Assembly (NCBI RefSeq): GCF_003269065.1
Contig: NZ_QLTA01000036.1
Span: forward strand, 1 to 54,949
Direction of reading: 5' to 3'
Source: Paracidovorax anthurii
GTDB taxonomy: Bacteria > Pseudomonadota > Gammaproteobacteria > Burkholderiales > Burkholderiaceae_C
Length of the DNA: 54,949 bases
Both the position numbers and the translations under genes were made by a program. Below, piece by piece: positions 17,403-25,330 of the stretch. Every line of letters starts with the position of its first letter. Position 1 is the stretch's first letter. Below the pieces are notes generated by a model that did not search any database, was not told the origin of the DNA, and worked only from the letters and a program-made list of their open reading frames with translations.

Positions 17403-18134
17403 ATGAGCACCACCGCCGACCTCGTCGCCGCCCTCAAGAAGGAACTCAAGGCCGCCCGCATGACCTATGCCGACCTGGCCCAGGCCCTGGGCATGGCCGA
17501 GTCCAGCGTCAAGCGCATGCTGGCCAAGGGCGACATGCCGCTGTCGCGCATCGATGCCATCTGCCGCGCACTGCGGCTGGACTTCGCGGACCTCGCGCGG
17601 CGCGTGGCCGACAGCCAGCCCCTGCTGGACCAGCTCACGCTGGAGCAGGAGCGCGCCGTGGTGGCCGACAAGAAGATGCTGCTCATGGCCATCTGCGTGC
17701 TGAGCCAGTGGACGCTGGAGCAGATCCTGGGCACCTACCGGCTCTCGGAGGCCGAGGGCATCAAATACCTCGCGCAACTCGACCGCATCGGCATCATCGA
17801 GCTGCGGCCCCTGAACCGCTACCGGCTCAAGCTCGCCAAGACCTTCCGCTGGCGCCCCCATGGCCCGGTGATGCACTACTTCCGCGACCATGCCCTGCTC
17901 GATTACTTCAGCGGCAGCTTCGGCGGGCCGGGCGAGGGCGTGCTGATGGTGCACGGCGCCATCAGCCGCAGCTTGGCGCCGGCCTTCCAGGAGCGCATCC
18001 AGCGCGTGGCCCATGATTTCGCGCAGCAGCATCTGTCCGACCAGCGCCTGCCCGAGGCGGAGCGCGAGGGCTACACCGTGCTGCTGGCCATGCGCCGCTG
18101 GGAGTTCGAGGTATTTACCGCGATGCGGCGCTGA
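17403..18134 (+). CDS. XRE-family helix-turn-helix regulator
   Basis: A 243-residue regulator. Residues about 5-65 are a Cro/CI-type helix-turn-helix (ARMTYADLAQALGMAESSVK, LSRIDAICRALRLDFADLAR). The remaining 175 residues form an all-helical domain with LSQWTLEQILGTYRLSEAEG and a winged-helix-like stretch (IKYLAQLDRIGIIELRPLNR), of unknown ligand. No ribosome site is visible upstream of ATG 17403; the -10-like CATAAT ends 8 bases before it, so the mRNA may be leaderless. It is divergent from the lipid operon (CREST, LplT-PlsC, HExxH) and is the obvious candidate for its regulator, which is inferred from position alone. Confidence 0.8.
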   Translation: MSTTADLVAALKKELKAARMTYADLAQALGMAESSVKRMLAKGDMPLSRIDAICRALRLDFADLARRVADSQPLLDQLTLEQERAVVADKKMLLMAICVLSQWTLEQILGTYRLSEAEGIKYLAQLDRIGIIELRPLNRYRLKLAKTFRWRPHGPVMHYFRDHALLDYFSGSFGGPGEGVLMVHGAISRSLAPAFQERIQRVAHDFAQQHLSDQRLPEAEREGYTVLLAMRRWEFEVFTAMRR

Positions 18135-18182
18135 AAAGGTGTTCACGAACTGAGCCCGCAGGCGCCAGAAGCGAAGCCCCCG

Positions 18183-18938
18183 TCAGCGCAGGAATCTCTG
18201 GCGCAGGGCGCTGCAGATGCAGGTGGCCAGCTCTTCCTGCTGGTCGATGCCGAACTGGATGGCGCGATCGAAATTGCGCGCCCAGGTGATGCGCCGCAGC
18301 GAGGGGTCCACCAGTCGGATCGACGCACGGATGCGCTGGGCATCGATGCGGACGCTGCTCTCGATACAGTGGTGCGCGCCCAGGCGGCGCGGCGGCGTAG
18401 CCCTGCCGCCAGCCACTTCCGGCGGCGCCCCCGGCGCCATGAAGACCGTGCCGAACGACTTGAACAGCTGCTCCAGCAGCTCCTCATAGAGGCCGTGTGC
18501 GAAGGCCTGCCCGTCCCCCCGCTCCGCGATGTAGTGGATGGGCTGGACCATCAGCAGGCGGGACTGCTCCGGGTCGTCCTTCGCGATGCTCCAGCGCCGG
18601 ATGGCGGGCATGTAGGTGCCGACGGGAACGCGTATCTCGATGCCGTCCGGGGGCTCGTGCGCCGCGTAATACACCTCCAGCCGCTGCCGCAGGCGCCCCA
18701 CCTGCACGCGCACGATCGGGTCCTCGGCCGGAACGAAGCGCGCGGGCTCCCGGTCGAACACCTCGATCCCGATCGCGTATTCGTTGGTGTTGCGGCTCTC
18801 GCCCGTGATCGCCTGCTCCACGAGGAAGCGCAACAGGCGCTGCATGCGGTGCGCCTTCATGAACGCATCGCTGGCCAGGATCGCGTTGCACGCGGTCCGG
18901 ATCTCGTCGTCTTTGATTCCCTCGATACCCTGTTTCAC
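18183..18938 (-). CDS. Regulator-like protein with cyclase-associated N-terminal domain and TolB-like C-terminus
   Basis: A 251-residue protein. The N-terminal half (MQRLLRFLVEQAITGE, NEYAIGIEVFDREP, DPIVRVQVGRLRQRLEVYYA) matches the small DNA-binding-like domain found at the start of many adenylate-cyclase/TPR regulators. The C-terminal half (FAHGLYEELLEQLFKSFGTV, IESSVRIDAQRIRASIRLVD, WARNFDR) resembles the TolB/FlgO-like fold that follows such domains in CadC-like regulators. There is no transmembrane segment. The start is a GTG at 18938 with GAGGGA 9 bases upstream; upstream in-frame ATGs are not preceded by ribosome sites. It is divergent from the RebB-like cluster, so it is the natural candidate for its control. 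Confidence 0.65.
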   Translation of the reverse strand: MKQGIEGIKDDEIRTACNAILASDAFMKAHRMQRLLRFLVEQAITGESRNTNEYAIGIEVFDREPARFVPAEDPIVRVQVGRLRQRLEVYYAAHEPPDGIEIRVPVGTYMPAIRRWSIAKDDPEQSRLLMVQPIHYIAERGDGQAFAHGLYEELLEQLFKSFGTVFMAPGAPPEVAGGRATPPRRLGAHHCIESSVRIDAQRIRASIRLVDPSLRRITWARNFDRAIQFGIDQQEELATCICSALRQRFLR

Positions 18939-19291
18939 AGTGTGTCCCTCATCAATTGCACTACTTGGTCTTTTGTGAGGCAGCCCCGCGCCACACCCCT
19001 CCCGCACGGCGCGGTCCGGCATGGAACCGGAAAAGGCTCCCGCAAAAGCTTCGCACGAATCGGGAAGTAACAAACGGGGAAACAGGGGTATCGGCCGGCC
19101 CGATACGCAGGCCTGCGAAGCACGGAAATCCAGGTATCGCGCAGAGGGAGCGCGGCCCCCCGGGCCTTGTTACGGTAACGGGCCCGGGCGGTTAACCGTA
19201 ACGATACTTTTCCGTGCGGGAAGCCGGAAATAAGATGCCTTCCGGCTCGAAAGATCGCCGCGACAAAACATCAAATTCATTGGAGGGTTCC
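18939..19291. other. 353-base divergent control region of the RebB-like cluster
   Basis: No gene is supported here. It holds the start region of the regulator, a run of small inverted repeats, and the 34-base palindrome at 19169-19202. Composition drops locally in GC near 18940-18990 and 19195-19245, where promoters of the two divergent units are most likely; I cannot assign hexamers with confidence. Confidence 0.5.
19169..19202. promoter_or_regulatory. Large palindrome upstream of the RebB-like cluster
   Basis: GTTACGGT at 19169-19176 and ACCGTAAC at 19195-19202 are perfect inverted arms; allowing one bulged T extends them to GTTACGG(T)TAAC. The centre contains GGGCCCGGGC. It lies 90 bases upstream of the first RebB-like start, fitting an operator for a dimeric regulator or a strong transcript-leader hairpin. 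Confidence 0.55.
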
Positions 19292-19609
19292 ATGCCAGAT
19301 TCGCTTCCGGCCGAGGTCATCCAGGCCATCGCGATATCGAACGCGAAATCCATCGGAGAGCAGCCGGCCATCCTGGCGAACCTCGCGCTGGCGCAGCAGA
19401 TCTTCAACCAGAACATGCAGCAGCAGATCGCGCTGAGCCAGCAGCAGGCCATGAACCAGGTGCAGATGGCCGCCACGGCCAAGAGCATCGCCATGATCGA
19501 CAACTGCAAGAACCAGGGCGCCATCGACCAGATGGTCAAGGACGTCGAGAAGCTGATCCGCGACATGGATCTGCTGCAGATGCAGAACAAGCCCGCCGGC
19601 AAAGGCTGA
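19292..19609 (+). CDS. RebB-like small protein, paralog 1
   Basis: A 105-residue protein very rich in Gln, Ala, Asn and Met. It shares with the next three genes the core AIAISNAKSIGEQPAILANLA, here followed by a Gln-rich helix (NQNMQQQIALSQQQAMNQVQ). The pattern [IV]-x3-[AI]-[IV]-A-x2-N-x-K-x3-E-x-P-A followed by QN/QQ repeats resembles the RebB 'killing trait' family, whose members assemble into R-bodies (coiled protein ribbons). The C-terminal 35 residues differ from the other paralogs (DNCKNQGAIDQMVKDVEKLI). ATG 19292 has GGAGGG 6 bases upstream. It is first in the cluster. The Reb match is by eye; another self-assembling helical family is possible. Confidence 0.6.
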   Translation: MPDSLPAEVIQAIAISNAKSIGEQPAILANLALAQQIFNQNMQQQIALSQQQAMNQVQMAATAKSIAMIDNCKNQGAIDQMVKDVEKLIRDMDLLQMQNKPAGKG

Positions 19610-19681
19610 CGCCCGGGCCTGCCGACTTCACCGAATGCGCTTCGCCCCGTCCGCCCGGACGGGAGCGGAAAACATCCTCCC

Positions 19682-19711
19682 CATCCCGGGGCGGCGGTAG
19701 GTTAGCCGCCA
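19682..19711 (+). promoter_or_regulatory. Hairpin in spacer between RebB-like genes 1 and 2
   Basis: The 139-base spacer contains CCCGTCC/GGACGGG near 19649-19666 and GGCGG...CCGCC near 19691-19710, a stable double hairpin just before the strong ribosome site of gene 2. It could be a processing or attenuation site that sets different levels of the two proteins. No T run follows, so it is not a standard terminator. Confidence 0.35.
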
Positions 19712-19748
19712 TTTCACACACCAATCTGATCAACGAGGAGAAAACACC

Positions 19749-20060
19749 ATGGCTTTGAACGAAGAAGTAGTGAGCGCAGTCGCCATCGGCAACCTGAAGG
19801 CGATTTCGGAACAGCCCGCGATGCTGTCCAACCTGGCCTACTCGAACACGGTGGCCAACACCAACCTGTCGCAGCAGAACGCGGTCGCCAACCAGCAGGC
19901 CATGAACGAGCTGGGCATCTCCATCGTCGCCAAGGCCTCCAACACGGTGAGCAACCTCGGCCCGCTGGAAGCCCGCTCCGCCGTGGACATCCTGACCAAC
20001 AACGAGCTGGCGCAGACCATCGCCGACATGAAGGCCACGCTGCAGGCCTTCAAGGGTTGA
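19749..20060 (+). CDS. RebB-like small protein, paralog 2
   Basis: A 103-residue protein with core VVSAVAIGNLKAISEQPAML and NLAYSNTVANTNLSQQNAVA, then NQQAMNELGISIVAKASNTV and a C-terminal helix (SAVDILTNNELAQTIADMKA). No signal peptide or membrane segment, few charges, many small residues: compatible with a structural protein that packs into fibres or ribbons. ATG 19749 has GAGGAGA 9 bases upstream, the best ribosome site in the cluster, so this may be the most abundant product. The first 75 residues are about four fifths identical to paralog 3. Family call RebB-like is by motif only. Confidence 0.62.
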   Translation: MALNEEVVSAVAIGNLKAISEQPAMLSNLAYSNTVANTNLSQQNAVANQQAMNELGISIVAKASNTVSNLGPLEARSAVDILTNNELAQTIADMKATLQAFKG

Positions 20061-20099
20061 TAAACAGGGTCTCATCGGGCCTGAAACGGAGGGCAGAAC

Positions 20100-20606
20100 A
20101 TGCTTGACGAACAAGTGGTGAGTGCGGTCGCGATCGGCAATCTGAAAGCGATTTCGGAGCAGCCGGCGATGTTGTCCAACCTCGCGTACTCCAACGTGGT
20201 GACCACCAACAACCTGGGGCAGCAGAACGCCGTGTCGAACCAGCGGGCGGTCGGCGAACTGGGGCTGCCGCTGGTGGCCAAGGCCACCAACACGATCAGC
20301 AACATCGGCCCCCTGGAGGCCCGCTCCGCGGTGGATGTGCTGACGAACGACGAGCTCGCGCAGACCATCGCCGATCTCAAGGCCGTGGTGGACGCGTTCG
20401 CCGGCGCGGGCGGCAAGGTGCCCGGGGGGCTTCTGAAGCGGCTCAGGGGACTGATCGACGTGGGCCTGCGGCTGGAAGGCGACATGGTCGTCGTGCCACC
20501 GGAGCTCACGCCGATCCTGATCCCTGGCAGCATCGCCAAGGAAGATATCCAGATCGTTATCGAGAACCGGGGCGTGATCATCAAGGTCAAGCCCACCGGC
20601 CGGTAA
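20100..20606 (+). CDS. RebB-like protein with extra C-terminal domain, paralog 3
   Basis: A 168-residue protein. Residues 1-95 repeat paralog 2 closely (VVSAVAIGNLKAISEQPAML, NELAQTIADLKA replaced by NDELAQTIADLKAVVDAF). Residues about 100-168 are unique in the cluster: a glycine hinge (AGAGGKVPGG), a basic helix (LLKRLRGLIDVGLRLEGDM) and a beta-rich end (VVVPPELTPILIPGSIAKED, IQIVIENRGVIIKVKPTG). The tail could cap, anchor or regulate assembly of the shorter paralogs. ATG 20100 has GGAGGG 9 bases upstream and follows paralog 2 by 39 bases. A terminator-like hairpin follows its stop. Confidence 0.6.
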   Translation: MLDEQVVSAVAIGNLKAISEQPAMLSNLAYSNVVTTNNLGQQNAVSNQRAVGELGLPLVAKATNTISNIGPLEARSAVDVLTNDELAQTIADLKAVVDAFAGAGGKVPGGLLKRLRGLIDVGLRLEGDMVVVPPELTPILIPGSIAKEDIQIVIENRGVIIKVKPTGR

Positions 20607-20621
20607 ACGTCCAAGGGTGAC

Positions 20622-20653
20622 AGCGGGGCGGCCCACAGGCTGCCCCGCTTCTT
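20622..20653 (+). terminator. Terminator-like hairpin between RebB-like genes 3 and 4
   Basis: AGCGGGGC (20622-20629) pairs with GCCCCGCT (20642-20649) and is followed by TCTTT. It sits 16 bases before the start-proximal ribosome site of paralog 4. Probably a partial terminator that lowers expression of the downstream genes. Confidence 0.55.
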
Positions 20654-20668
20654 TGCGAGGGAGCAAAC

Positions 20669-21016
20669 ATGGGAAGCATTGAAATCAAGGTGGCCAACCA
20701 GCCGCAGGGCCTGCCCGGCGAGGTGACCGAGGCCGTCGCGCTGACCGGCGTGGCCACGGCACAGCAGCCCGCGAACCTGTCGAACCTGGCCTACGCCAAT
20801 CAGGTCACCAGCAACAACCTGAGCGCGCAGAACCAGGTCGCCCGCCAGGACGCCATGAACCGGCTGCACTACTCGATCCTGGCGCAGGCCGTGAACCAGG
20901 TGCAAGACCTGCAGCCCGTCACGGCGCGGTCCAGCGTGGCGGCGTTCACCGACAACGAAACGGCCCAGGCGCTCGCGGACCTGAGGGCGGTCATCGGGTC
21001 GTTCTCCGGCCGCTGA
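20669..21016 (+). CDS. RebB-like small protein, paralog 4
   Basis: A 115-residue, more divergent member of the family. It begins MGSIEIKVANQPQGLPGEVT and keeps EAVALTGVATAQQPANLSNL and NQVTSNNLSAQNQVARQDAM, then ends with the shared helix FTDNETAQALADLRAVIGSF. The usual N-K pair in the core is replaced by G-V-A, so its packing surface may differ. ATG 20669 has GAGGGAG 6 bases upstream. Placed after an internal terminator-like hairpin, it may be made at lower level than paralogs 2 and 3. Confidence 0.6.
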   Translation: MGSIEIKVANQPQGLPGEVTEAVALTGVATAQQPANLSNLAYANQVTSNNLSAQNQVARQDAMNRLHYSILAQAVNQVQDLQPVTARSSVAAFTDNETAQALADLRAVIGSFSGR

Positions 21017-21044
21017 GCGCGGGGGCCAGCAGGAGCACAACGGC

Positions 21045-21392
21045 ATGCAACACACCACCCAACCCATGGCGCCCATGGAGCAGCACAACCGCCTGCTCAT
21101 GGCCCAGATCGAAGGCCGGCTGCGCAGCGGCTTCGACGCGGCGCTGAGCAGCGGCGACTACTACGTGATCCGCAACAAGGGCACGGGCGTCCTCTCGGTG
21201 CTGGCATCGACCACCATCCAGGACGACCACGACTGCGTGCTCGGCCCCAAGCCGTTCGCGCAGTGCATCGAGTTCGTCAACTCCTCCGTGGTCACGCGGA
21301 TGGCTGAATCCGACGGCTGGACGCCGGCGGCCAGCGCCCTGCCGCCATCGCCCGCCACGCAGGAACACGCCACCGAGGGAGCCGCCCCATGA
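21045..21392 (+). CDS. Unrecognised 115-residue protein of the RebB-like cluster
   Basis: A soluble protein with an N-terminal helix (PMEQHNRLLMAQIEGRLRSG), a central segment with likely beta strands (DYYVIRNKGTGVLSVLAS, IEFVNSSVVTRMAE) and a Pro/Ala-rich tail. Two cysteines are present (HDCVLG, AQCIEF). No known domain is recognised. ATG 21045 has AGGAG 9 bases upstream, 28 bases after paralog 4. Its stop overlaps the start of the next gene (ATGA), so the two are translationally coupled and probably needed in similar amounts. Confidence 0.6.
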   Translation: MQHTTQPMAPMEQHNRLLMAQIEGRLRSGFDAALSSGDYYVIRNKGTGVLSVLASTTIQDDHDCVLGPKPFAQCIEFVNSSVVTRMAESDGWTPAASALPPSPATQEHATEGAAP

Positions 21393-21592
21393 GCCAGCCG
21401 GAATCCATCGAGGAACTGGGCAAGGCCGTCGAGGACATCGCCATATCGATGACCAAGGTGGCCACGAACATCGCCCTGCTGGGCGTGGAAGGCAATGCCG
21501 ACGAGCAGATGCGCATCATCACCGAAGAGAACAACAAGGTGCTGGACTACATCCGCAAGCTCTACAACCTGCCTCCCGCGCCAGGGGGCTGA
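21389..21592 (+). CDS. Small helical protein, coupled to its neighbour
   Basis: A 67-residue acidic protein predicted to be almost entirely helical (SIEELGKAVEDIAISMTKVA, NADEQMRIITEENNKVLDYI) and ending in a proline tail. Heptad-like spacing of Ile, Val and Leu suggests a coiled coil or a helical hairpin. It starts in the ATGA overlap with the preceding gene and its stop is one base before the next start, a tight coupling typical of subunits of one assembly. No family recognised. Confidence 0.6.
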   Translation: MSQPESIEELGKAVEDIAISMTKVATNIALLGVEGNADEQMRIITEENNKVLDYIRKLYNLPPAPGG

Positions 21593-21593
21593 C

Positions 21594-21818
21594 ATGGCGG
21601 CCACCGGCTCGATCGTCGATGCGCCGCTCGCCGCGGCGGGCGCGCTGAACGCCGTGGCGCTTCCGCGCGCCGAGGCGTCCTACACGCTGATGGTGCAGGT
21701 GCTGCAGAGCGAGCAGCCCTCCCCGCTGATCTTCGGGTCGCTGGCCCTGAGCGCCAGCGCGATCACCCAGAGCCTGGCGCTGTACGAGACGACCATGGCC
21801 CGGGGCCATGCCGGCTGA
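21594..21818 (+). CDS. Small Ala/Ser-rich hydrophobic protein
   Basis: A 74-residue protein, rich in Ala, Leu and Ser, with two moderately hydrophobic stretches (AAAGALNAVALPRAEASYTL, LIFGSLALSASAITQSLALY). Its composition and the Q-P-S-P-L turn loosely echo the Reb-like core (EQPA-L), so it could be a remote member, but identity is too low to claim this. ATG 21594 is one base after the preceding stop. The next gene probably overlaps its end by 11 bases. Confidence 0.5.
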   Translation: MAATGSIVDAPLAAAGALNAVALPRAEASYTLMVQVLQSEQPSPLIFGSLALSASAITQSLALYETTMARGHAG

Positions 21819-22530
21819 CGCGCGCAGCGGAACCCCCATGCCGCGCCCCGATCCCCTATGGCGCCCGCTGCCGGAGCAGGTGGTGGTCGTGGCCTTTCCC
21901 ACCGCCTGCACGCAGGCCGCCTGGCCCGGCGCCGCGGGCGCGCCCGCGAGCTTCTTCATCGTGCAGGCCCCCACCGAGGACATCACGCTGCCGCAAAGCG
22001 ACCTGGGCTGGCTGCGGCTGTCGCAGCCCGAGCCCATCGCGCCAGGCTGGAGCCGGGTGGCCTACCAAGCCGACGACAACACCCTGGACGCGCGCAGCGT
22101 GCCGGTGCCCGTGGTCGTGCGGCAACACCGCTATGCGGTGGAGTTCCTGCAGCAGGCCGGGCTGCTGGTGCAGACGGAGATGGTGCGCGTGCTGAATTCG
22201 CCGCTGAACATCGACTGCCTGATGGCGGTGATGTTCATCGCCAGCCTCATCAAGAAGATTCCGGTGCCGCCCATCAAGGTGATCGTCACGGTGCTCGCGG
22301 TGCTCGCGCTCATCGCGCTGGGCATGGCCGTCTCGCTGCTGCGGCACAGCTTCGCGGGCGTGCCCGAGCCCCGGCCCCTGTCCACCGACACGAATGGCGT
22401 GCCCATCACCGTGGTGCCCGGCGTCTCCGTCTCGCAGGGCCTGCCGCTGGCGCAGGTGCCGGCCGAGGACCAGACCATCGCGCTGCAGACCCTCAAGGAA
22501 ATCTACTGGCTGCTCAAGCAGGTCGCGTGA
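21808..22530 (+). CDS. Membrane protein of the RebB-like cluster
   Basis: A 240-residue protein. Residues about 20-130 form a soluble domain (EQVVVVAFPTACTQAAWP, LGWLRLSQPEPIAPGWSRVA) with no recognised fold. One or two membrane helices follow at about 137-148 and 157-178 (PIKVIVTVLAVLALIALGMA) and the last 60 residues are soluble, ending with an amphipathic helix (LQTLKEIYWLLKQVA). It may attach the assembly to the inner membrane. The ATG at 21808 overlaps the previous gene; an alternative ATG at 21838 (MPRPDPLW) has AGCGGAA 7 bases upstream and is equally possible. Confidence 0.6.
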   Translation: MPADARSGTPMPRPDPLWRPLPEQVVVVAFPTACTQAAWPGAAGAPASFFIVQAPTEDITLPQSDLGWLRLSQPEPIAPGWSRVAYQADDNTLDARSVPVPVVVRQHRYAVEFLQQAGLLVQTEMVRVLNSPLNIDCLMAVMFIASLIKKIPVPPIKVIVTVLAVLALIALGMAVSLLRHSFAGVPEPRPLSTDTNGVPITVVPGVSVSQGLPLAQVPAEDQTIALQTLKEIYWLLKQVA

Positions 22531-22579
22531 TGCCCGCGCCCCGTTTCCCCCATCCCCCAAGAGAGAAAGAGAGGTCTCC

Positions 22580-23677
22580 GTGCCCATCACCATCGAAGAA
22601 ATCCTGCAGAACACCGCCGCCTACACCGCGATCCTGCCGCTGAGCTACATGGTTCCCACCTTCTACCCCACGCCGCCCGGCAAAGTGGAACCCTCCAGCG
22701 GCGCGCCCCGCATCCGCCTGGACGACCCCGACCTGCAGGCGCGCGCCCAGCGCCTGGTCAACGTGCTCTTCTGGACCGCCACCACCTACCAGAACCTGGA
22801 CGGCATGACGGACGGCAGGACACTGAAGGTCTTCATCGCACCGGAGTTCTACTTCCGCAAGGCATCCCGGCAAGAGACCGACAACGTCCAGTTCCTGCGC
22901 GACACGAGTTTCGGCTCATATCCCGAGGATGCCCGCTACGTGCTGGCCGAGGCGCTGTACGGCGCGATCCTGGGCTCGTCGCTGTTCCGGGACTGGCTCA
23001 TCGTCGCGGGCACGGTCTGCTCTGTGCTGCCCATGCAGGACGCCCACCGCCTGAACCTGCTCAACACCGCGATCATGCTGCGCGGCCAGCGCGCCCGCCA
23101 GGATGCCAGCGTGCCCTACGTCCTGATGGAGAAGCACTACATCTCGCATATCGACGGTCCGCCGCAGGACTGGCACGCCAACCTCGACCCGTCCACCACT
23201 TACAGCTTCCAGCTCAACCCCGACCAGAACCTGGACAACCTGATCTACTGGGACCAGATGACGGTGGGGCTGGAGGTGTGCCTGGACCACGCCAAGCAGG
23301 TCGCGGCGAACGCCATGAACACCCTGAGCCAGACACTGGGGCCGCAGGCGAAGGCCCTGGACCTGCAACTGGTCACGTCCTGCGGCATGACCATCGTCCA
23401 GCAAGCCGTGGCGGTGGCCGACGGCGCCCTCATCCTGCTCACGGACGGCATGTCCCACCTCCAGCACCTGCAGGAGCCGGTCTTCGAGATCGGCCGCTAC
23501 GATGCGGCCGCGAACACCACGAAACTGATCGACCGCAGCAGCTTCCAGTTCACCGAACTACCGCTGCACGAGGACTACCAGGTGGACTACCTCCAGGGCC
23601 TCTACAGCAAGAAGGGCCTGCGCCAGGGCGTGTGGGCCGCCAAGGCGGCACTGCCCCTGCGCACGACCACCCCCTGA
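22580..23677 (+). CDS. Nitrilase-superfamily (carbon-nitrogen hydrolase-like) protein
   Basis: A 365-residue soluble protein. Three segments fit the Glu-Lys-Cys catalytic triad of the C-N hydrolase fold: Glu89 in KVFIAPEFYFRK, Lys185 in VLMEKHYISH and Cys234 in MTVGLEVCLDHAKQ, with spacing (96 and 49 residues) in the superfamily range. Further fold-like strands are WLIVAGTVCSVL and LQLVTSCGMTI. Sequence outside these motifs is unlike classical nitrilases or amidases, so the substrate cannot be guessed. The start is a GTG at 22580 with AGAGAGG 7 bases upstream. It is the last gene of the cluster and may modify or trigger the assembly, or be the effector; this is inference from linkage. Confidence 0.65.
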   Translation: MPITIEEILQNTAAYTAILPLSYMVPTFYPTPPGKVEPSSGAPRIRLDDPDLQARAQRLVNVLFWTATTYQNLDGMTDGRTLKVFIAPEFYFRKASRQETDNVQFLRDTSFGSYPEDARYVLAEALYGAILGSSLFRDWLIVAGTVCSVLPMQDAHRLNLLNTAIMLRGQRARQDASVPYVLMEKHYISHIDGPPQDWHANLDPSTTYSFQLNPDQNLDNLIYWDQMTVGLEVCLDHAKQVAANAMNTLSQTLGPQAKALDLQLVTSCGMTIVQQAVAVADGALILLTDGMSHLQHLQEPVFEIGRYDAAANTTKLIDRSSFQFTELPLHEDYQVDYLQGLYSKKGLRQGVWAAKAALPLRTTTP

Positions 23678-23686
23678 CGGCAGGGG
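23671..23686. terminator. Hairpin between convergent hydrolase and repressor genes
   Basis: CCCCTG, ACGG, CAGGGG forms a short GC-rich hairpin that overlaps the stop of the hydrolase. There is no T run in either direction, so termination efficiency is doubtful. It lies in the 23-base gap between converging genes. Confidence 0.3.
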
Positions 23687-23700
23687 CGCGGGCCCGGCGC

Positions 23701-24423
23701 TCACAGCGTCTCGCTGTGCACGTGCACCACGCGGCCGATGAGCCGCGCGGCGGGCTCGGTCAGTTGCTTGCGCGGAAAGCGCAGCGCGTTCTCCGCCGCG
23801 AGCCACCAGGCGCCGCTGTCGCGCACGACGCGGCGCACCAGGCACGCGCCTTCGTAGTCCACCACGAACACCCGCCCATCGGCCGGCGCGGGCTCGCGCG
23901 TGTCCACCGTCACCACGTCGCCGGCATGCAGCGAGGGCTGCATGCTGTCGTCGCCGATCGCCACGGCGATCAGGTCCCGCGCGCGCAGGCCCCGGCGCTC
24001 CAGCCAGTCGTGGGTGAGCGCGACGGACGGGATGTCCCCGCCCCCGGCATGGCGGCCCGAGGCCGTGGCCCGTTCCGCGTCGCCACGCCAACGCAGCACG
24101 GCCTGCGGCTGCACGGGCAGCAGCAGGACGGCATCGGCCACGGCGGAGGCATTCATCGGGTTCGCGTACGGATGGGCCGGCTCGCCGGCGTGCACCGGCG
24201 CGGACGCGGCGGGATGGAACCAGCCCCGCATGCCGCGCAGGGCCTCGATGGCCCGCACGGTCTTGTCCGACACGGCGCGCGAACCGGACAGCATCTGGCG
24301 CACGAAAGCGCCATCGCGGTAGCCCAGCATGCGCCCGAGCGCGGTCACGTTGCCGCCCGTCAGGTGGGCCACGGCCTGCTCAAGCCGCTGCCGCCGATAG
24401 AGTTGCAACGCGGTTTCGTCCAT
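23701..24423 (-). CDS. CI-like repressor with S24 (LexA-type) C-terminal domain
   Basis: A 240-residue protein. Residues about 10-65 are a helix-turn-helix (LTGGNVTALGRMLGYRDGAF, RQMLSGSRAVSDKTVRAIEA) and residues about 130-240 the S24 peptidase-like domain. The catalytic serine is Ser160 in GDDSMQPSLHAGD. The position of the catalytic lysine, 37 residues later in LexA, is occupied by Arg197 (ACLVRRV), so self-cleavage may be lost or weak. The start at 24423 leaves the operator region free. It is divergent from a small Cro/YdaS-like gene and convergent with the RebB-like cluster. No phage genes are nearby, so it is either a remnant immunity module or a host regulator. Confidence 0.85.
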   Translation of the reverse strand: MDETALQLYRRQRLEQAVAHLTGGNVTALGRMLGYRDGAFVRQMLSGSRAVSDKTVRAIEALRGMRGWFHPAASAPVHAGEPAHPYANPMNASAVADAVLLLPVQPQAVLRWRGDAERATASGRHAGGGDIPSVALTHDWLERRGLRARDLIAVAIGDDSMQPSLHAGDVVTVDTREPAPADGRVFVVDYEGACLVRRVVRDSGAWWLAAENALRFPRKQLTEPAARLIGRVVHVHSETL

Positions 24424-24429
24424 GGGCTC

Positions 24430-24500
24430 GAAAAGTAGCACGCGCTACAGTTGCGCATGCTACTTTCCAAAAATAGAATCCAGAGCAATTGCTACTTTCC
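24430..24500. promoter_or_regulatory. Operator cluster between the CI-like and Cro-like genes
   Basis: Three copies of GCTACTTT(T/C)C: inverted at 24430-24439, direct at 24459-24468 and 24491-24500. The first is also half of the palindrome GTAGC-N4-GCTAC (24435-24448). One copy lies in the promoter spacer and one just after the expected transcription start, the arrangement of a repressor-controlled switch. Confidence 0.7.
24451..24479 (+). promoter_or_regulatory. Sigma-70 promoter of the Cro-like gene
   Basis: TTGCGC at 24451-24456, a 17-base spacer and TAGAAT at 24474-24479. The start codon is 36 bases downstream of the -10. The spacer contains one GCTACTTTCC operator copy, so binding there would block RNA polymerase. 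Confidence 0.65.
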
Positions 24501-24769: not shown

Positions 24770-24904
24770 CGCGGCCCCGAAACACCTGCTCACACTGCTT
24801 CGCGCAGTGGCGACACGGGCTTGACGAAGCGCCCGGAAGATGGCGACATGGCGAGCGGATGCCACGCACCGCCCGCCATCCCTTCGCTTCACAAGGAGAC
24901 CTCC

Positions 24905-25330
24905 ATGACCACCCGCAAGGCCCTCTCCCTCACCGCCGCCTCCATCGCCCTGGCCTCGGTCCTGGGCACCGTGACCACCGCGGCCCGCGCGGCCACCAGC
25001 GCCACGGTGATCGTGCAGTCCGGCCCGCAATACGTGCCCGCCGCGCCCATGGTGGTGCAATATCCGGCGCCGCCGGCCCCGCGCTATGAGCGCGTGCCGC
25101 CGCCCCGGCGCGGCATGGTCTGGGAACAGGGCCACTGGGAATGGCGCGGCCATCGCCACGTGTGGGTGCCGGGCCACTGGCTGCGCGCACGGCCGGGCTA
25201 TGCCTACCGCCAGCCGGCCTGGGTGCAGAACGACGGACGCTGGGAAATGCGCCGCGGCGGCTGGGACCGCGACGGCGACGGCGTTCCCAACCGCTACGAC
25301 CGCCGGCCCGACAACCCCTACCGCCGCTGA
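24905..25330 (+). CDS. Exported WxxGxW-repeat protein
   Basis: A 141-residue protein with a signal peptide (about residues 1-29, ending ARAA). The mature part is Pro/Arg/Trp/Tyr rich and contains the repeat pair MVWEQGHWEWRGHRHVWVPG and HWLRARPGYAYRQPAWVQND, the YXWGXW/BcpO-type repeat found in betaproteobacterial periplasmic proteins. It ends DRDGDGVPNRYDRRPDNPY, a thrombospondin-3-like calcium-binding loop. ATG 24905 has AAGGAGA 8 bases upstream. Function unknown; envelope or calcium-dependent structural role is inference. It is monocistronic, with 143 bases before the next gene. Confidence 0.8.
   Translation: MTTRKALSLTAASIALASVLGTVTTAARAATSATVIVQSGPQYVPAAPMVVQYPAPPAPRYERVPPPRRGMVWEQGHWEWRGHRHVWVPGHWLRARPGYAYRQPAWVQNDGRWEMRRGGWDRDGDGVPNRYDRRPDNPYRR

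Follow-up and report, generated by a model that had tools for sequence, protein, structure and literature searches.

In the 54,949-nucleotide contig NZ_QLTA01000036.1 of Paracidovorax anthurii, here called the window, a block of ten genes at positions 18183 to 23677 consists of a divergent minus-strand gene (reg) and nine plus-strand genes (reb1 to reb4, orf5 to orf8 and nit), and we consider it likely that this locus is a divergent R-body (Reb) operon, that is, an R-body variant. Its core is a divergent branch of a known R-body kind and is partly in print. The host genome measures 5.47 Mb, and Paracidovorax species are plant-associated or plant-pathogenic. A sequence-only reading of the window had proposed four RebB-like paralogues accompanied by a membrane protein, a nitrilase-fold hydrolase, small genes and a divergent regulator. 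Each of the ten genes was recovered where that reading had placed it, but some starts were corrected (GTG at 18938 for reg, GTG at 22580 for nit and, most likely, ATG at 21838 for orf8).

The four reb genes lie side by side on the plus strand as reb1 (19292 to 19609; 105 amino acids [aa]), reb2 (19749 to 20060; 103 aa), reb3 (20100 to 20606; 168 aa) and reb4 (20669 to 21016; 115 aa). Reb2 is the candidate main Reb-like subunit, and the other three are termed Reb-like on the basis of paralogy and synteny. The core sequence quoted in the sequence-only reading is present in all four, and each window paralogue matched the other three in relatives' loci (tblastn, E about 10−5 to 10−50), confirming four adjacent paralogues. 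Their description as short proteins fitted the group but not reb3, which is longer through a C-terminal extension.

The relationship to Rebs emerged at the level of the family. When the Pfam model PF11747 (RebB; gathering cut-off, 24 bits) was compared with the reb2-type proteins of the window and of the loci fetched from other genomes, 26 of 27 matched at E ≤ 1, the best at 2 × 10−6. Five of them, chosen outside the genus from loci of Verrucomicrobiota, Chlorobiota and Anabaena and then rescanned, all exceeded the cut-off, with 24.4 to 28.2 bits (an excess of 0.4 to 4.2), while the Anabaena reb1 orthologue reached 3.7 × 10−4 and 21 bits, under the cut-off. For the reverse search, a profile of 19 genus paralogues (A1) was run against nine genomes with over-cut-off PF11747 matches, and at E ≤ 10 it gave nine matches in six of the genomes, every one on a PF11747-positive gene (E from 6.2 × 10−6 to 0.37, five of the nine ≤ 0.012). 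Profile-profile alignment with 19 canonical Rebs (hhalign) returned a probability of 82.7% and an E-value of 9.4 × 10−6 over 68 columns, and the profiles also matched the Rebs of Caedibacter (1.6 × 10−5) and Azospirillum (2.2 × 10−6). Shuffling served as a control for composition, these proteins having a high content of Ala, Gln and Asn: 20 of 26 canonical Rebs, a set that includes three Caedibacter and four Azospirillum proteins added for that test, outscored all 200 of their own shuffles, and two were equalled once. The motifs K..[GSA][DE] (25/27), N[AS][VLTM] (26/27) and QQ (27/27) recur in the reb2-type proteins, all 27 of which are free of Cys. The profile and motif tests used the sequences of alignments A1, A4 and A7, a part of all the reb genes found.

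Several results weigh against the R-body assignment. The window's own reb2 (E 0.02, 15.4 bits) and reb3 (E 0.17, 12.5 bits) fall under the PF11747 cut-off, and reb1 and reb4 had no match to this family in the Pfam scan. In the reverse search, three of the nine genomes gave nothing and most reb genes of the other six went undetected, and 4 of the 26 canonical Rebs did not stand out from their shuffles. The QITD-like signature [QR]I[TV][DE] occurs in none of the 27 reb2-type proteins, as opposed to 23 of 26 canonical Rebs, and QQQ likewise is found in none of the 27; a PDB sequence search gave no Reb relative below E 0.3. QITD is the signature of primary Rebs in the published motif definitions (PMC13430693; this and the other published sources cited here were covered in part), and because it is absent we describe the reb1-4 branch as a divergent variant and not as canonical RebB. 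In NCBIfam, RebB had no match among the window proteins, and a RebB claim resting on the window's own Pfam and NCBIfam scores would be weak. The family-level comparisons, in contrast, put the relationship on firm ground, and the reb1-4 products are real, if remote and divergent, homologues of Rebs. Thus, the profile check against PF11747 that the sequence-only reading had proposed did yield RebB matches for the family, and its notion of RebB-like paralogues stands as homology supported by shuffle controls, but not as membership by the window's own proteins, which score under the cut-off and lack QITD.

The block is inherited as a unit within the genus, present or absent as a whole, and so is no chance arrangement. 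Among 17 genus genomes, nit is present in 7; the six besides the window's carry all ten genes in order, and three further genomes have reb1-4, orf5-8 and reg without nit, so that ten genus genomes hold the block. The flanking gene at 17403 to 18134 occurs in 16 of the 17. In all six of the block-less congeners examined that have this flanking gene, nothing of 18136 to 23700 was matched, and alignment resumes, with 10 to about 640 bases in between, at 23701 in two genomes and at 24772 to 25039 in the other four; the two flanks of one of these congeners are only 10 bases apart. In congener G306, one of the three genomes without nit, a transposase-like open reading frame (ORF) interrupts reg (L050, 10917 to 12026), and the reb genes stay open.

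A scan of 84,980 species genomes for distant relatives found 28 loci, a number that is a lower bound because the scan used short peptide patterns. The full set of reb1-4, orf5-8 and reg is present in 15 of the 28, with nit also in 10 of these 15; E-values for gene content in fetched loci were computed on those loci and not on genomes. Five full-set loci belong to congeners (Paracidovorax konjaci, P. oryzae, P. cattleyae and P. valerianellae, and Acidovorax sp. SUPP3334) and ten lie outside the genus, in Dyella mobilis, Lysobacter penaei, Luteibacter anthropi, a Luteibacter metagenome-assembled genome (MAG), Rhodanobacter, Xanthomonas populi, Pseudomonas boreopolis and three other MAGs; nit accompanies 7 of these ten. 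The synteny survey suggested by the sequence-only reading therefore found the gene set recurring in ten loci outside the genus and in order in six congeners, and the condition by which that reading would have been refuted, no RebB profile match and no synteny beyond close relatives, did not arise. Loci of Verrucomicrobiota, Anabaena, Aliikangiella and others retain the reb1 and reb2 types; several of them also have a weak relative of orf7 or orf8, the orf7 ones being in Verrucomicrobiota and Anabaena. Few genomes carry the system: of 369 sampled from the class, the window's own was the single one, and a nit match was obtained in 2 of 299 genomes drawn from the family, the window's and a distant one (28% identity). 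Carriage by a phage or plasmid was considered and rejected. Searches with reb2 gave no match in plasmids or phages, and those with the Anabaena reb2 none in plasmids; nit had no match in phages, no relative in viral contigs and five distant matches in plasmids. Three Reb-like ORFs with 31 to 34% identity to reb2 were seen on the IMG/VR viral contigs L101 (8001 to 8360), L102 and L103, and that of L101 adjoins a 2558-aa ORF and a recombinase-like ORF. A stop codon closely follows the apparent start of the Xanthomonas populi reb2 (L072, upstream of 5380), and this gene may have a later start or be inactive.

The gene reg (18183 to 18938, minus strand; 251 aa from the GTG at 18938) is present in all 15 full-set loci. 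It had no credible match in Pfam or NCBIfam; its N-terminal half looks winged-helix-like and its C-terminal half TolB-like. The region between reg and reb1 is variable except for a paired putative operator, GTTACGGTAAC-N12-TTAACCGTAAC (19169 to 19202, 90 to 123 bases 5′ of reb1), both halves of which seven aligned genomes retain, save for a single altered base in one genome. When up to 400 bases 5′ of reb1 were scanned for the palindrome GTTACSGTAAC with at most one mismatch, at least one box was found in all 15 reg-bearing loci and in none of 5 reg-less loci, the latter being 5 of the 13 loci without the full set; two boxes, the second with at most two mismatches, were present in 13 of the 15, their starts 21 to 23 bases apart. 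The exact palindrome occurs at one place in the 5.47-Mb genome, at this locus, compared with three per strand for a reversed control pattern. The simple reading of this observed co-occurrence is that reg and the GTTACSGTAAC boxes form a dedicated regulator-operator pair, in which the protein would bind the boxes. A sigma-70 promoter scan found none (0.3 expected), and four terminator-like sites were found against 3.2 expected.

Two RNA-level features lie between the reb genes. Just 5′ of reb4, an intercistronic hairpin (20623 to 20648, plus strand) was predicted in 14 of the 15 loci folded, and the genus alignment shows two pairs changed on both sides. Over those 14 loci (alignment A12, excluding L073 with a z of −0.6; L015, L017 to L019, L052 and L071 were outside the folding set), 87.4% of cells are paired, a count that leans upward because the stretches were cut around hairpins seen in single folds. 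Cells changed on both sides numbered 24, compared with 7.5 in shuffles (none of 500 reached 24) and at most 6 in slid versions. Two of the five measures, the pairs changed on both sides (36/500) and the further pair types (76/500), were not clear of shuffles, which tells against the hairpin; covariation as a whole nevertheless showed the predicted pairing. Between reb1 and reb2, a 43-base intergenic element (19672 to 19714, plus strand) is conserved in sequence in all ten genus loci aligned, and a loose pattern of it recurs in 8 of 17 other loci, with an AGG-containing loop common across genera. Its alignment (A11) held 15 of the 18 loci matching the element. A two-hairpin structure for it was rejected, as covariation did not rise above slid controls, and only sequence conservation is retained; it had no credible Rfam match, the sole one (E 0.56) being under the gathering score.

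Selection was compared with the six full-block congeners by a simple counting method. The ratio of nonsynonymous to synonymous substitution rates (dN/dS) was 0 to 0.04 for reb2 and 0.10 to 0.59 for reb1, reb3, reb4, orf5-8, nit and reg. Reb2 is 99 to 100% identical in the six congeners, and in Dyella mobilis and Lysobacter penaei the identity across the matched portion is still 95 to 96%. This near-invariance is the pattern that would be expected of a tightly packed polymer subunit, without being proof of one.

The last gene of the block, nit (22580 to 23677, plus strand; 365 aa, GTG start), encodes a protein whose AlphaFold2 model (mean predicted local distance difference test [pLDDT], 73; predicted template modeling [TM] score, 0.81) has the fold of the nitrilase superfamily according to Foldseek and VIA-align, so that the nitrilase-fold guess of the sequence-only reading was borne out as far as the predicted fold goes. 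Foldseek TM-scores against nitrilase-superfamily proteins were only 0.31 to 0.41, at about 10% identity. Glu89, Lys185 and Cys234 are invariant in 11 of 11 members, and we take them to be the Glu-Lys-Cys triad, an assignment from motif context and not from residue superposition. None of the 11 members matched the CN-hydrolase Pfam model, and a PDB sequence search with nit gave no match. Thus, nit shares its predicted fold and Glu-Lys-Cys with the C-N hydrolases of that superfamily, such as formamidase AmiF and aliphatic amidase, whereas it differs from them in its low identity, in the absence of a CN-hydrolase match and in its reb context. It sits 3′ of orf8 in nine of the ten nit-bearing full-set loci and upstream in L069, and the Verrucomicrobiota and Anabaena loci examined gave no nit match. 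That 5 of the 15 full-set loci lack nit, as do 3 of the 10 block-bearing genus genomes, is a further point against the operon as proposed, and implies that nit is not essential. Prompted by equal length, we compared nit with HP1.1 (about 360 aa, Group 1 reb loci), for which we took an Azospirillum gene by place and size (our own assignment), and homology was rejected (hhalign 0.3%, E 0.22).

Distant nit-like genes were also seen elsewhere. A plasmid of Vibrio sp. THAF191d (L097, 16387 to 18249) encodes a 620-aa distant nit-like protein (profile E 1.1 × 10−10) on the strand opposite to a canonical reb cluster, at a distance of about 8.5 kb, with paired matches in two sister plasmids; this may be another instance of R-body genes that have a nitrilase-like gene nearby. 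Two others, L090 8071 to 9420 (G028, same family) and L099 8044 to 9891 (Azospirillum plasmid p1), had no reb cluster in the stretch examined, and the former adjoins a phage-tail-collar-like ORF and two similar-looking ORFs of 205 and 211 aa.

Between reb4 and nit lie three small genes and a membrane protein gene, all on the plus strand. The products of orf5 (21045 to 21392; 115 aa), orf6 (21389 to 21592; 67 aa) and orf7 (21594 to 21818; 74 aa) are each present in all 15 full-set loci; orf5 and orf6 overlap by 4 bases in a common ATGA (21389 to 21392), as the sequence-only reading had claimed of overlapping starts, and 1 base separates orf6 from orf7. No credible family match was found for orf5 or orf6 in Pfam or NCBIfam. 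Two further Reb candidates were rejected: orf7 as a fifth Reb (hhalign probability 0.2%), and an extra Reb gene in congener G308 (PF11747, 18 bits), which we take as a chance match because a long transporter-like frame runs across it on the opposite strand. The product of orf8 (21838 to 22530; 230 aa, alternative start at 21808) was modelled by AlphaFold2 with a mean pLDDT of 83.2 and consists of an immunoglobulin (Ig)-like or BACON-like N-terminal domain, hydrophobic helices (judged by eye) and a C-terminal helix. BACON (PF13004) was matched by 4 of 19 aligned orf8 proteins (best 1.3 × 10−5, one over the cut-off), so that the membrane protein of the sequence-only reading has gained a BACON-like domain in some homologues, but the window's own orf8 had no match to the Pfam profile. 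This likeness is confined to the N-terminal domain of those homologues, and fusion to hydrophobic helices sets orf8 apart from BACON. The top Foldseek matches were ciliary central-pair proteins (1.8 × 10−4), with a Bacteroides protein at rank 3 and a TM-score by query of at most 0.32 among the matches listed, and we read them only as a predicted Ig-like sandwich.

One congener (G299), probably Acidovorax avenae ATCC 19860, carries this locus with four reb genes and no other PF11747 match at E ≤ 1; that this identity is no more than probable counts against what follows for published R-bodies. Four "very divergent" Rebs were reported for Acidovorax avenae ATCC 19860 by Raymann et al. in 2013 (PMC3583457), in the same genus under its former name and in the same number as here. 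Microscopy is reported to have revealed R-bodies in Pseudomonas avenae (a 1983 report cited in PMC3583457 and PMC13430693), and Raymann et al. tied them to that species' four Rebs (PMC3583457). The four published Rebs are very probably orthologues of this locus, and the orthologous locus most likely gives rise to the R-bodies of Pseudomonas (now Paracidovorax) avenae. Acidovorax was also listed among reb carriers by Dorr et al. in 2026, whose survey ignored non-Reb neighbours (PMC13430693).

The locus resembles canonical reb clusters (Caedibacter taeniospiralis pKAP298, Pseudomonas aeruginosa PA14, Azorhizobium, Azospirillum and Vibrio) in its adjacent small paralogues, in the motifs KXXXD/E, NA[V] and QQ, in a neighbouring regulator and in a patchy spread across distant taxa, whereas its branch lacks the QITD signature of canonical Rebs. 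The partners also differ. The reb regulators named in the literature covered are of Crp-Fnr (RebR) or sigma-factor/RcgA types, in contrast to reg with its boxes, and the reb partners and regulators described there for PA14 (PMC8322103) and Azorhizobium (PMC5527310) are of other kinds. Seven canonical reb loci yielded nothing related to orf5-8, nit or reg at E < 0.3, and the same held below 0.2 for the Azospirillum locus and for 6 kb of the Caedibacter plasmid; an orf5 relative in canonical locus L058 (tblastn E 0.033) was dropped, as it was unseen with the profile. Nor did orf5-8 have a significant BLAST match to the Azospirillum genes taken as HP1.1 to HP1.4 of Group 1 (PMC3583457). The text of Raymann et al., as far as covered, describes no regulator, operator, BACON-like membrane protein, nitrilase-fold gene or cross-phylum spread for these Rebs (PMC3583457), and no mention of a nitrilase beside R-bodies or reb genes was found in the main texts of the two reb surveys or among the papers listed (12 of 13) by a literature search for that pairing, subscription papers being outside this scope. 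The partner set, operator and hairpin may thus be new: they are undescribed in the literature covered, within which no search was aimed at the operator or hairpin. The claim of accessory parts not described for R-bodies accordingly held for that literature, but the Rebs themselves were already in print for Acidovorax avenae (PMC3583457).

For this locus we infer ribbon formation and the roles of the enzyme and membrane protein as follows. Reb1 to Reb4 would most likely co-polymerise in the cytoplasm into a coiled, insoluble ribbon, of which the near-invariant Reb2 would be the main building block. The dedicated divergent regulator would set expression through the GTTACSGTAAC boxes 5′ of reb1, and the reb3-reb4 hairpin would probably keep reb1-3 more abundant than the genes behind it. 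The three small proteins of orf5-7 are likely assembly factors or minor parts, orf8 with its BACON-like domain could tie the ribbon to the membrane, and nit may act in most versions as a C-N hydrolase, either cargo or modifying enzyme; since 5 of 15 full sets do without it, a role in tuning or arming the ribbon is more likely than one in building it. By homology to known R-bodies, the ribbon would extend when the cell lyses or is taken up by a predator or host cell, and would thereby break a membrane. Only tentatively, and with more doubt than belief, do we extend this to a second, cross-phylum R-body class, an enzyme-armed, membrane-linked ribbon machine in which nit and the BACON-like protein would work with the Reb polymer under the regulator-operator pair and a stoichiometry-setting hairpin.

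The polymer could instead belong to the Reb superfamily and no longer extend or break membranes, serving as a static intracellular scaffold or a membrane-tethered filament that carries the small proteins and the enzyme. The loss of QITD, the conserved membrane protein, the failure to find here any relative of the Azospirillum gene that occupies the position of HP1.1, a published partner, and the occurrence of reb1 and reb2 types in Verrucomicrobiota MAGs and Anabaena would all suit such a structure, whereas the microscopy of Pseudomonas avenae R-bodies, linked to its four Rebs (PMC3583457), argues for ribbons that are true R-bodies, and we regard the static form as unlikely. Still less probable is that nit is the point of the locus, with a Reb-like filament or compartment organising a C-N hydrolase for a metabolic or signalling reaction. 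Its usual place 3′ of orf8 (nine of ten), its invariant Glu, Lys and Cys and its dN/dS of 0.24 to 0.33 in the genus are consistent with this, but reb1-4 and orf5-8 stay in the full sets (5/15) and genus blocks (3/10) from which nit has gone, nit is upstream in L069, and the Verrucomicrobiota and Anabaena loci examined gave no match to it. Finally, the Reb similarity could be convergence among Ala/Gln/Asn-rich helical proteins in a locus of another nature, derived, for example, from phage tail or virion proteins, as might be suggested by the Reb-like ORFs on three IMG/VR contigs and by two weak PHROG matches, one between reb2 and a tail protein (0.022) and one between reb4 and an internal virion protein (0.0031). 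However, the PHROG matches of all ten proteins are weak, none better than 0.003, order-specific matches survived shuffling in 20 of 26, and the forward and reverse searches agree; convergence is thus a very improbable account, and a divergent R-body operon is the reading that we prefer.

Both surveys leave open what purpose R-bodies serve in bacteria that live freely and which partner genes are required (PMC3583457, PMC13430693). For this question the locus offers a compact conserved partner set with defined boundaries and a candidate regulator and operator, and its presence-absence pairs within the genus, together with natural nit-less versions, make the roles open to deletion tests. Current Pfam and NCBIfam models leave the window's members unnamed, so the number of such systems may be underestimated in surveys that depend on those models.

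Directly downstream of the block, a LexA/phage-repressor-like gene (23701 to 24441, minus strand) probably lies outside it, because alignment resumes there at two block-less sites.

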